64,000 bases of DNA from Aquiluna sp. (GCA_029241985.1 JAQWUU010000004.1:1-64000), one strand, 5' to 3'; numbered from the stretch's first letter, positions 15,342 through 20,160 are shown. The notes: generated by a model not told the origin, from the sequence alone. Translations and numbers: made by a program.

Positions 15342-15461
15342 ATGTGCGCAAGGGTAAGTTGTTCAAGCTGTAACAAGCCAACCTGGGAAGGTTGCGGTGA
15401 GCACATCGAGGAGGCGCTAGCTGGCGTTGCCGAGGCAGACCGCTGCCAGTGTGCTCGTTAG
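15342..15461 (+). CDS. Small cysteine-rich protein (39 residues)
   Basis: This is a tiny protein with the pattern CxxCxKxTWxGCGxHI near the N-terminus (Cys7, Cys10, Cys18) and CQC at residues 36-38 near the C-terminus. This Cys/His pattern is a recurring short family in actinobacteria and could bind a metal such as zinc. No function is known to me. AAAGGA eight bases before the ATG is a good ribosome-binding site. It lies alone between the divergent membrane protein and serA. Confidence 0.75.
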   Translation: MCARVSCSSCNKPTWEGCGEHIEEALAGVAEADRCQCAR

Positions 15462-17132: not shown

Positions 17133-18779
17133 CTATTTCTGAGCAGCTCGTTTTCTAGCGAGCGTTCCCTGACTCCAAGTGGTGTAGCCACCATCGAGGT
17201 TTTTGGCGCTTATTCCATGCCCCTTCAAGAGCTGAACTGCGGTATGACCTCGTTGACCAACAGCACAGTGAACAATCACGTTCCTGCCTTCCAGTTGCGC
17301 CAGGTGTTGCCTGAGAGAATCAACAGGAATCAAGACTGATCCCGGGATTGCGCCGGTTTCATTTTCTGAAGCCGATCTAACATCCACAAGAACATGAGAA
17401 TCAGCCTGAAGTGCTTCAAGCTCGTGCCACTGGACCGTTTCAGTTTTGCCGGACAGTACGTTGTCGCCAACATAGCCGGTTTGGTTGATTGCATCTTTTG
17501 CAGATCCGAAGGCAGGTGCGTAAGCAAGTTCAAGATTCATGAGGTCCTGAATTTCAAGGCCGGCATAGATTGCAGTTGCGATGACATCTATGCGCTTGTC
17601 CACGCCATCAAACCCAATTGCTTGAGCCCCCAGAATCTTTTTTGTTTCAGGGCTGAAAAGAACCTTGATTGAAATCGGGTGGGCACCGGGGTAGTAGCCA
17701 GCGTGGCTAGATGGGTGAAGGTGGATGATGCTGTGGGCAATGCCCATTCTTATGGCTAGTCCTTCAGTCAAACCAGTTAGCGAAGCGGCCAACCCATAGG
17801 CGCCGATGATGCCGGTCCCAATTGAGGGTCGTGCACTGACTTTTTCACCGGCTATTACATCGGCTACCAGGCGACCGTGACGATTGGCGAGGTTTGCCAA
17901 CCAGATCATCTGAGGCTCCCCGGTTAGTGCACTTGTTTTCTCGGCTGCATCTCCGACGGCGTAGATGTTTGGGTCACTGGTGCGCATTTGGTCATCCACC
18001 TTTATGCCACCGGCAGATCCGATTTCTAGTCCAGCATCAACTGCAAGTTTGTGATCTGCAACCACACCTATTGCTGCTACCACCAGGTCCGCTGGAATAA
18101 CGCGGCCATCCTTTAGGACCAGCGTGTCAGGCAACACCTCTGATGTCTCGGCACTGAGCGCAAGCTTGATTCCGTGATCGACAAGCACTTTTTGCATGGG
18201 TTCGATCACTTCTGGGTCGAACTGGGGGAGTATCGTGTCGCGGAATTCAACGATTGTGGTCTCAATGCCACGGTGCTGAAGGTTTTCAGCAAGTTCGACA
18301 CCGATAAAGCCAGCACCAATGATTGCCGCTGACTTTATTTTCTTTTCGTCAACCAGCTTCTTGATTGCAACGGCATCTCCAACGTCTTTGAGGACGTGGG
18401 CTCGCTCAAGACCTGGAATGGGCACCATTCTCGGCTTAGCTCCAGTTGACAGCACGAGCTGGTCGTAACTCTCTTCGTATTCAGTGCCGCCTTGTAGGTC
18501 ACCAACATTGATTGTCTTGGCTGATGGGTCAATGCTCAGCACTCTGCTGTTTACTCGAACATCCAGGTTGAATCGCGCGTTTAGCGATTCGGGAGTTTGC
18601 AAGAGAAGGTCTTGCTCCTCTTGGATTACTTCGCCAATGTGATACGGCAGCCCGCAGTTTGCGTATGAAACATTCGGACCCTGCTCGAAGACGATGATTT
18701 CAGCATCTTCCTTTAGTCTGCGTAATCTTGTCGCTGCAGACATCCCGCCTGCAACGCCACCAATAATGAGAACCTTCAT
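17133..18779 (-). CDS. CoA-disulfide reductase with C-terminal rhodanese domain
   Basis: This is a 548-residue fusion. Residues 1-440 are a flavin disulfide reductase with FAD motif IIGGVAGGMSAATRLRR and the single active cysteine Cys42 in SYANCGLPYHIG, the hallmark of CoA-disulfide/CoA-persulfide reductases. The NAD(P)H site is IIGAGFIGVELAENLQ. Residues about 455-540 form a rhodanese domain with active Cys505 in HCAVGQRG. Enzymes of this architecture reduce CoA-persulfide or polysulfide, moving sulfane sulfur through the rhodanese. It is the last gene of the minus-strand operon and begins directly after the stop of the preceding rhodanese. Confidence 0.92.
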   Translation of the reverse strand: MKVLIIGGVAGGMSAATRLRRLKEDAEIIVFEQGPNVSYANCGLPYHIGEVIQEEQDLLLQTPESLNARFNLDVRVNSRVLSIDPSAKTINVGDLQGGTEYEESYDQLVLSTGAKPRMVPIPGLERAHVLKDVGDAVAIKKLVDEKKIKSAAIIGAGFIGVELAENLQHRGIETTIVEFRDTILPQFDPEVIEPMQKVLVDHGIKLALSAETSEVLPDTLVLKDGRVIPADLVVAAIGVVADHKLAVDAGLEIGSAGGIKVDDQMRTSDPNIYAVGDAAEKTSALTGEPQMIWLANLANRHGRLVADVIAGEKVSARPSIGTGIIGAYGLAASLTGLTEGLAIRMGIAHSIIHLHPSSHAGYYPGAHPISIKVLFSPETKKILGAQAIGFDGVDKRIDVIATAIYAGLEIQDLMNLELAYAPAFGSAKDAINQTGYVGDNVLSGKTETVQWHELEALQADSHVLVDVRSASENETGAIPGSVLIPVDSLRQHLAQLEGRNVIVHCAVGQRGHTAVQLLKGHGISAKNLDGGYTTWSQGTLARKRAAQK

Positions 18780-19112
18780 TTATTTCACAACTCTTAGGCC
18801 AGCTCGTCTCCAACCGGCCATGCCGCCGGCAACGTTCTTGACGTTGTAGCCGTTTTTGGCAAGCAAGGTTGCCGCTTGACTTGAGCGCATGCCCGATTGA
18901 CAGATGACAAGCACTTCGCGCCCCATTGGTATCAATCCCAGCTTGCTACCGATAACAGACACTGAAATGTTCTTGGTCCCAGGTGCATGTCCAGTCTTGA
19001 ACTCACTTGGCTCGCGCACGTCGATAAATACAGCTCCCGCGCTTGCCAATTCACTTGCAACCTCAGGGCTCACGGTTTCAAACTTCTTTTTGAACATGTC
19101 AAACAGGCCCAT
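18780..19112 (-). CDS. Rhodanese-like sulfurtransferase
   Basis: This 110-residue single rhodanese domain carries the persulfide-forming Cys71 in the loop CQSGMRS and the CH2A-type DVREPSEF segment. A short basic N-terminus (MGLFDMFKKKF) precedes it. The ATG at 19112 overlaps the upstream stop as TAATG; an upstream in-frame ATG would overlap the previous gene by 45 bases and is less likely. It is the third gene of the CstR operon and presumably passes sulfane sulfur between low-molecular thiols and the downstream reductase. Confidence 0.9.
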   Translation of the reverse strand: MGLFDMFKKKFETVSPEVASELASAGAVFIDVREPSEFKTGHAPGTKNISVSVIGSKLGLIPMGREVLVICQSGMRSSQAATLLAKNGYNVKNVAGGMAGWRRAGLRVVK

Positions 19113-19429
19113 TATTTGCTCGCCTCCAGTGAAACCTCGTTGCCAGCGGTTATCCATGCACCAGTTCCACCAGCAACGGAGACCGCTTGGTAACCCTCAG
19201 TGCCAAGGTAATTTGCAGCAGTCATGGATCGACCACCAGATTGGCAGATGACCCAGATTGTCTTATCTTTTGGAAGACTGGCTAGCTTGTCTGGCACAGA
19301 GCTAAGCGGCATGCTCAGCGCGGATGGGACATGACCAGATTCATACTCCCAGCCCTCCCTGACATCGACGATGATTTCCTGATTTTCAAGAGCAACCGCC
19401 AGGTCGCCAATTGTTACTTCTTGAGTCAT
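19112..19429 (-). CDS. Rhodanese-like sulfurtransferase
   Basis: This is a 105-residue single-domain rhodanese. It has VDVREGWEYESGHVPSA and the active loop CQSGGRS with Cys62. It is clearly a paralogue of the next gene but lacks its basic N-terminal extension. AAGGA, about seven bases before the ATG, is the ribosome-binding site. It directly follows the repressor gene in the operon, 25 bases away. Confidence 0.92.
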   Translation of the reverse strand: MTQEVTIGDLAVALENQEIIVDVREGWEYESGHVPSALSMPLSSVPDKLASLPKDKTIWVICQSGGRSMTAANYLGTEGYQAVSVAGGTGAWITAGNEVSLEASK

Positions 19430-19454
19430 TACTTTTCCTTCGTCTTTGTTTTAT

Positions 19455-19712
19455 CTAGCTCAGCGCTAAGAATGCTTTTTCAAGTTTTTGTCGGTCGGCG
19501 TTACCGGATTCTCCAGCTGCGCAGTGAGACATTCCACTGGCGATGAGGCTAAAAGCAGCGCGGTTAATTGCCGCTTGAGCAGCAGCCATTTGGGTCAGAA
19601 CATCGGTGCATTCGCGGCCTTCTTCTAACATGCGGATTATGCCGCCTAGCTGTCCTTGAGCTCTAGCAAGTCTTTTTCTGATTGCTTCGGTCTCTAGTTC
19701 TGGAATTTCCAT
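19455..19712 (-). CDS. cstR: CsoR-family transcriptional repressor, CstR-like persulfide sensor
   Basis: This 85-residue all-helical DUF156 repressor has RLARAQGQLGGIIRMLEEGREC at residues 14-35, as in the family. The two sensing cysteines are Cys35 and Cys64. The copper-binding histidine of CsoR, four residues before the second cysteine, is replaced by Gly60, so this is not a Cu(I) sensor. The pattern fits CstR, which forms inter-subunit sulfur bridges when exposed to persulfides. Genes behind it are all sulfurtransferases, in line with that reading. A TAGGAG ribosome-binding site lies upstream, and a perfect operator lies 45 bases before the ATG. Confidence 0.9.
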   Translation of the reverse strand: MEIPELETEAIRKRLARAQGQLGGIIRMLEEGRECTDVLTQMAAAQAAINRAAFSLIASGMSHCAAGESGNADRQKLEKAFLALS

Positions 19713-19743
19713 TGCCGACTCCTATAGTTTTTGCTACTTTTGG

Positions 19744-19749
19744 TATAGT
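19744..19749 (+). promoter_or_regulatory. Possible -10 box of the rhodanese lipoprotein gene
   Basis: TATAGT lies eight bases before the operator, so a repressor bound at 19757-19772 would cover the transcription start. No convincing -35 box was found at normal spacing. Confidence 0.4.
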
Positions 19750-19756
19750 ATAGCAA

Positions 19757-19772
19757 ATACCCCTAGGGGTAT
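19757..19772. promoter_or_regulatory. CsoR/CstR-type operator
   Basis: ATACCCCTAGGGGTAT is a perfect 16-bp palindrome of the C-tract/G-tract type bound by CsoR and CstR repressors. It sits in the 76-bp gap between the divergent repressor gene and the rhodanese lipoprotein gene, placed to control both directions. Confidence 0.9.
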
Positions 19773-19788
19773 CAAAACAAGGACGGTT

Positions 19789-20160
19789 ATGAAGATCTTA
19801 AAGTTTCTGATTGCGGCAGTGGTCACAGTTTTCGCGGTCACATCTTTGACCGCTTGCACTCCGGCAGAATCACGAACCAGTGATGAATTCGCCGCGGTGA
19901 TTGACGTTCGCACTCTTGACGAGTGGAACTCTGGCTACTTAGAGGGCGCGATTCGCATCGGCATCGCGGACGCCGATTTTGTTCCTATGATCCAAGAGCT
20001 CGACCCTTCGTTGGATTACTACATTTATTGCCGCTCGGGAAATCGCGCTGGACAGGCGATCGACAAGATGCGGGATATGGGGTTCACCGGTGAGCTGGTG
20101 AACGGCGGGTCAGTAGCAAATGCAAGTACTCAACTCGGACTTGAAGTTCTAAAACCCTAG
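19789..20160 (+). CDS. Rhodanese-domain lipoprotein (exported)
   Basis: This is a 123-residue protein. A signal peptide ends in the lipobox LTAC with Cys23 as lipid-anchored residue, so the mature domain is on the outer face of the membrane. The rhodanese fold follows, with VIDVRTLDEW at about residues 38-47 and the active Cys81 in CRSGNRAG. AAGGA six or seven bases upstream is the ribosome-binding site. It is divergent from the CstR operon across the shared operator, so it is likely co-regulated and handles sulfane sulfur or thiosulfate outside the membrane. The external role is inferred. Confidence 0.92.
   Translation: MKILKFLIAAVVTVFAVTSLTACTPAESRTSDEFAAVIDVRTLDEWNSGYLEGAIRIGIADADFVPMIQELDPSLDYYIYCRSGNRAGQAIDKMRDMGFTGELVNGGSVANASTQLGLEVLKP

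Follow-up and report, generated by a model that had tools for sequence, protein, structure and literature searches.

A CstR-like repressor, its regulon, and a predicted CoA-persulfide-reducing module in Candidatus Aquiluna

Introduction

The cst-like operon of Enterococcus faecalis encodes CstR, RhdA, RhdB, and CoAPR, the last of which reduces CoA-persulfide (CoASSH) to CoA and H2S and is strongly upregulated after Na2S treatment (PMC9405070). In the cst operon of Staphylococcus aureus, consisting of cstR, tauE, cstA, cstB, and sqr (PMC5480029), sulfide is oxidized through sulfide:quinone reductase (SQR) and the CstB dioxygenase. A circuit of Streptomyces coelicolor contains ScCsoR, a persulfide dioxygenase (PDO), a rhodanese, and a sulfite transporter, and ScCsoR is released by sulfane sulfur from operators with the consensus ATACCn6GGTAT (PMC7533328). 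The yrkD cluster of Bacillus licheniformis has 11 genes, including those for SQR, PDO, TusA, TauE, and a two-component system (PMC9918477). Here we analyzed a 64,000-nucleotide stretch of DNA (hereafter designated the window) from Aquiluna sp. (GCA_029241985.1, JAQWUU010000004.1:1-64000), in which a CstR-like repressor, two single-domain rhodaneses, a fusion of CoA-disulfide reductase (CoADR) with rhodanese, and a rhodanese lipoprotein are encoded around one operator. The host belongs to Candidatus Aquiluna (Microbacteriaceae), and its genome of 1.31 Mb is represented by an assembly of 55 contigs that is 90.5% complete. The module is probably an actinobacterial counterpart of the cst-like operon known from E. 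faecalis, switched by persulfide and reducing CoA-persulfide.

The Aquiluna module contains the four gene kinds of the E. faecalis operon, namely, a CstR-like repressor, two single rhodaneses, and CoADR-rhodanese, with no dioxygenase or SQR inside, and shares with it a two-Cys repressor and a fusion enzyme carrying Cys42 and the rhodanese Cys. It differs in the rhodanese lipoprotein gene that diverges from the shared operator and in a repressor of the actinobacterial clade, whose residue 60 is Gly, whereas it is Asn in three other enterococci examined. A CsoR-family persulfide repressor and rhodanese-type enzymes are common to the S. aureus operon, but neither SQR nor the dioxygenase of the latter was found here. 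The likeness to the S. coelicolor circuit lies in the actinobacterial type of CsoR-like sulfane-sulfur sensor and its ATACCn6GGTAT operator, with a CoADR-rhodanese fusion here instead of PDO-based oxidation, and that to the yrkD cluster in a CstR-like repressor over rhodanese-type sulfur carriers. Moreover, over 30 Lactobacillales loci, drawn from the 80 best-matching relatives of the fusion enzyme, carry the set of CsoR, single rhodanese, and CoADR-rhodanese. Because the E. faecalis operon and these loci share it, the core is of a known kind. A preliminary description of this DNA, in which the comparison was limited to the S. aureus-type operon, had taken the layout for a new variant, a view that does not hold.

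Results

Gene organization of the module

The module consists of the following elements.

19455-19712, minus strand: CstR-like repressor of the CsoR/RcnR family with Cys35, Gly60, and Cys64 (PF02583, alignment, and tree)
19112-19429, minus strand: rhdA-like single-domain rhodanese (rhodanese A), active-site loop CQSGGR (PF00581, 1.2e-15)
18780-19112, minus strand: rhdB-like single-domain rhodanese (rhodanese B), loop CQSGMR (PF00581, 2e-16)
17133-18779, minus strand: coaPR-like FAD/NADH CoA-disulfide (persulfide) reductase with C-terminal rhodanese, Cys42 and Cys505 (TIGR03385, 1.3e-134; Pfam rhodanese, 1.6e-13)
19789-20160, plus strand: divergent rhodanese lipoprotein with signal peptide, lipobox LTAC, and loop CRSGNR (PF00581, 2.3e-9)
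19757-19772, no strand: operator, a perfect 16-bp palindrome between the divergent genes (pattern search)
19747-19775, minus strand: candidate promoter TTGATA-17-TATACT with an extended -10 and the operator inside the spacer (consensus match)

The repressor, rhodanese A, rhodanese B, and fusion genes follow one another in this order on the minus strand, and the lipoprotein gene is divergent. The likely ATG of rhodanese B at 19112 is coupled to the stop of rhodanese A through TAATG and was preferred over the longer start (19157) given by the open reading frame (ORF) caller, which overlaps rhodanese A; the ATG of the fusion gene directly abuts the stop of rhodanese B. All five genes, four rhodanese domains, Gly60, and the 16-bp palindrome of the preliminary description were recovered, and its view of one compact, operator-controlled module is supported. 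The complete gene set occurs in the window and in seven other Aquiluna loci. The sulfane-sulfur response module is real and well conserved.

The repressor lacks the copper-ligand His

The repressor matched PF02583 over residues 8-80 (1.8e-22) and belongs to the CsoR/RcnR family, defined by this domain in a small protein of about 85-120 residues; no second member was found in the 90.5%-complete assembly. In the alignment of 13 Aquiluna repressors, Cys35, Gly60, and Cys64 are invariant. Copper CsoR proteins have a Cys-His-Cys set of Cu(I) ligands, the His being four residues before the second Cys, whereas Gly60 replaces this His in all 13 repressors, confirming the initially noted CsoR-family repressor without the copper His. 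The two retained Cys residues and the absent ligand His conform to CstR, and this pattern is common to most linked homologues. A CsoR-family gene flanks 52 of the fusion enzyme's 80 best-matching relatives, and position 60 in these 52 proteins is Gly, Asn, Lys, Gln, Thr, Ala, or Arg, with His in none; it is Gly or Ala, never His, in 12 CsoR-family proteins of actinobacterial plasmid sulfur clusters. The best-matching solved structures of the repressor include the CsoR-family entries 7mq1 and 7mq2, the latter being reported as CstR (PMC9774590).

Separately, in 12 Streptococcus loci (L117, L119, L122, L127, L132-L134, L145, L148, L159, L169, and L170), the CstR-like repressor adjoining a CoADR-rhodanese gene has Val, Ile, or Ala instead of the second Cys, so that sensing, if any, would proceed through a single conserved Cys.

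Operator and regulon in Aquiluna

The operator ATACCCCTAGGGGTAT was, as initially noted, a perfect palindrome and the sole match in the window even when up to 3 mismatches were allowed (1 match versus 0.02 expected), and the 1.31 Mb genome contains 2 exact copies versus about 0.0003 expected from base composition. On the minus strand it is framed by a -35-like TTGATA and an extended -10-like TATACT; since promoter-like matches numbered 3 versus 1.9 expected in shuffles, this candidate promoter is suggestive only.

Boxes of the form ATACCC-N4-GGGTAT, which fit the ScCsoR consensus, numbered 25 in 23 Aquiluna genomes, against 0 for the reversed control pattern. Fourteen are located at the divergent promoter of the repressor and lipoprotein genes (in 14 genomes), eight are 40-59 bp upstream of a gene for a 38-40-residue Cys-rich protein between ilvC and serA, and three precede a gene for a YgaP-like membrane protein (PF11127; two above the cut-off and one slightly below). 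The second exact copy in the window's genome (contig C43, L048 6413-7009) lies 9 bp before a 67-residue SLAC1-like ORF, which is situated between the box and the YgaP-like gene and may be a truncated transporter. A perfect palindrome alone cannot tell CsoR from CstR; the regulon can. All 25 boxes precede genes predicted to encode the rhodanese/CoADR module, the YgaP-like protein, or the Cys-rich protein, in agreement with CstR, which controls sulfane-sulfur genes through a G/C-rich palindrome. The regulon content strongly argues for sulfur and against copper, and the inducer would be that of the characterized homologues. Together with the missing His, it supports the non-copper, CstR-type regulator of the preliminary description, which did not include the wider regulon, the 40-residue Cys-rich gene at 15342-15458, or the distinctiveness of the lipoprotein.

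A copper regulon was considered and rejected: the copper ATPase gene of the window's genome (contig C28) has no box; it comes after CopZ, and an ArsR-type gene is in the vicinity. At L090 2910-6047, an ArsR-type regulator gene and a DUF4395-like gene precede those for the copper ATPase and CopZ; DUF4395 genes, identified by eye, are also present in the plasmid sulfur clusters.

Predicted CoA-persulfide reductase

The closest solved structures of the fusion enzyme, both with full-length alignments, are 3icr (CoADR) and 8a56 (CoA-persulfide reductase). The end-to-end alignment with 8a56 (1.2e-141) matches both catalytic Cys residues, and Cys42 and Cys505 are invariant in Aquiluna. The enzyme accordingly has the sequence features of CoAPR, a CoADR core with the active Cys42 and a C-terminal rhodanese with its catalytic Cys, and scores 449 bits against TIGR03385, below the equivalog cut-off of 578.8 for CoA-disulfide reductase. 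By analogy with characterized homologues, it would reduce CoASSH with NADH.

Search for oxidative enzymes and mycothiol ligase

The window's genome yielded no persulfide dioxygenase, its Lactamase_B matches being RNase J and ComEC only, and no bifunctional ST/SDO. No PDO-type metallo-beta-lactamase (MBL) protein was found in the 23 Aquiluna genomes (14 of good quality), in which the MBL matches are RNase J/ComEC-sized, three beta-CASP-like, and one small MBL protein type. Two sets of candidates for a hidden dioxygenase were rejected by eye: three PDO-sized MBL ORFs of 463-480 residues in other Aquiluna are beta-CASP-like, and MBL proteins of 212-224 residues near gltX belong to a different, small MBL family. 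The Pyr_redox_2 proteins of the window's genome comprise Lpd, NAD(P)H-quinone dehydrogenase, TrxB, an NDH-2-like protein, GltD, and others. The genome search for sqr and persulfide dioxygenase genes proposed in the preliminary description was run on the 90.5%-complete assembly and recognized neither, in keeping with its statement that both are missing here.

For mycothiol ligase, no match to the MshC model exceeded the cut-off in the genus, and the matches below it appear, from score and ORF length, to be of the CysS type. This suggests that mycothiol is probably absent and would be consistent with CoA being an important low-mass thiol.

Rhodanese lipoprotein

The divergent protein has a signal peptide followed by LTAC, conforming to the lipobox [LVI][ASTVI][GAS]C. 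Of 21 homologues, found in Aquiluna and in related Microbacteriaceae/Micrococcales, 19 keep the lipobox at the expected N-terminal place (the start of the other two being unreadable from the stop-to-stop frame), and 20 keep the catalytic loop CRSGNR. This operator-sharing rhodanese lipoprotein is apparently a previously undescribed component.

Cys-rich protein of about 40 residues

A further conserved gene lies near the module.

15342-15458, plus strand: gene of a 39-residue Cys-rich protein, without a box here (pattern MC....C..C.K.TW.GCG.H...AL..V....C.C)

The protein has five or six Cys residues with C..C, GCGxH, and C.C motifs, is mostly unannotated, and is covered by no Pfam or NCBIfam family. 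In eight Aquiluna genomes a box precedes its gene; in other Microbacteriaceae, the gene stands behind a box at L108 and L111 and immediately downstream of the fusion gene at five loci (L104-L107 and L110). Besides the window, it was noted at L056, L079-L081, L096-L099, L104-L107, and L174-L189. Homologues occur in 67 plasmid records, mostly unannotated. In 15 plasmid loci, a CsoR-family gene is present within 4 kb in 12, at least one box in 11, a box at most about 120 bp upstream of the gene in 7, and a CoADR-rhodanese homologue beside the gene in 3, fractions that are not an unbiased estimate because the loci were hand-picked from the match list. Other neighbors in these actinobacterial sulfur clusters are genes for MBL-rhodanese fusions, TauE, rhodanese, DsrE, and DUF2892 proteins. 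The AlphaFold model (pLDDT 83.8, pTM 0.47) gave no significant match in a fold search of PDB, and the resemblance to the HMA domain is faint and non-significant (E 0.095).

The protein is apparently previously undescribed. A literature search, which is weak evidence as subscription papers fall largely outside it, returned no description of either this protein or the module in Aquiluna. There is about an even chance that it is a core member of the actinobacterial CstR-type regulon, serving in sulfane-sulfur or metal buffering, and that it defines, with the lipoprotein, an actinobacterial branch of the persulfide response with components that the Firmicutes models lack.

Genomic surroundings and variation

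The module is flanked by ilvC-serA on one side and leuB-ilvE-gltX on the other. The near-complete genomes G010 and G011, which lack the repressor, have no box and a single rhodanese gene between serA and leuB. At three repressor-less Aquiluna loci (L091, L092, and L093), a single rhodanese that shares 54-58% identity with rhodanese A is likewise encoded between serA and leuB without a box. The lone rhodanese in repressor-less genomes suggests module loss or stepwise assembly.

Discussion

Presumably, in resting cells the repressor, with Cys35 and Cys64, would occupy the 16-bp operator and block both the promoter of the minus-strand operon and the divergent lipoprotein gene. Upon build-up of persulfide or polysulfide, Cys35, together with Cys64, would be persulfidated or cross-linked, and the repressor would leave the operator so that both transcripts could be made. 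Inside the cell, RhdA and RhdB may pass sulfane sulfur to CoA or other thiols, and the CoADR-rhodanese fusion may then reduce the resulting CoA-persulfide with NADH to CoA and H2S. The lipoprotein rhodanese might handle sulfane sulfur on the outside, where it would be anchored to the membrane. The inducer, the persulfide chemistry, and the substrate in this scheme are those expected from characterized homologues. The route that the preliminary description favored, reduction of sulfane sulfur through CoA instead of its oxidation, appears likely.

A copper-stress response under the control of an ordinary copper-sensing CsoR is a most improbable reading of the module. The CsoR-family fold, the similar appearance of copper CsoR sites, and the faint HMA resemblance of the Cys-rich protein would fit such a role, but they are set against Gly in place of the His ligand in 13 of 13 Aquiluna repressors, the box-less copper ATPase gene with its CopZ and ArsR-type neighbors, and a regulon of rhodanese, CoADR, and YgaP-like genes. 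It is also very unlikely, if slightly less so, that the 10% absent from the assembly encodes an SQR or dioxygenase completing a classical oxidation route. The fragmented assembly leaves room for one, and related actinobacterial plasmid clusters contain a PDO-type MBL-rhodanese fusion with TauE; against this, PDO-type MBL proteins were found in none of the 23 Aquiluna genomes, and the genus has no further box that could control a dioxygenase.

A sulfane-sulfur sensor whose enzymes mainly deliver sulfur to biosynthesis, reduce CoA disulfide, or provide NADH-dependent defense against peroxide or oxidative stress is unlikely as well, though the least so of these alternatives. The position among amino-acid biosynthesis genes, between serA and leuB, the several activities of CoADR-family enzymes, the score below the equivalog cut-off, and the four loci lacking CoADR and RhdB at the site speak for it; the full-length similarity to 8a56 with both catalytic Cys conserved, and the linkage of CsoR, rhodanese, and CoADR-rhodanese recurring in two phyla, speak against it.

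Several observations weigh against a persulfide-switched, CoA-persulfide-reducing module. In the tree (90 columns, midpoint root), the actinobacterial repressors are separate from the Bacillota/Lactobacillales CstRs and do not fall in the Bacillota clade, so that "CstR-like" here denotes features and regulon, not orthology. The search that recognized no SQR was confined to one assembly. CoADR-type enzymes can also work as CoA-disulfide reductase or NADH oxidase. Two Aquiluna loci (L056 and L080) have the repressor, fusion, and lipoprotein genes without the single rhodaneses, and four have the box, repressor, rhodanese A, and lipoprotein with neither the CoADR fusion nor RhdB at the site, which indicates that the CoA step is not obligatory. 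As all these variants share the repressor, operator, and lipoprotein, these three form the constant part of the module.

The reductive CoA-persulfide branch, studied in Enterococcus, would thus also operate in streamlined aquatic actinobacteria that apparently lack mycothiol and dioxygenase. The three-target regulon and its two conserved components, the rhodanese lipoprotein and the tiny Cys-rich protein, are open to direct functional testing.

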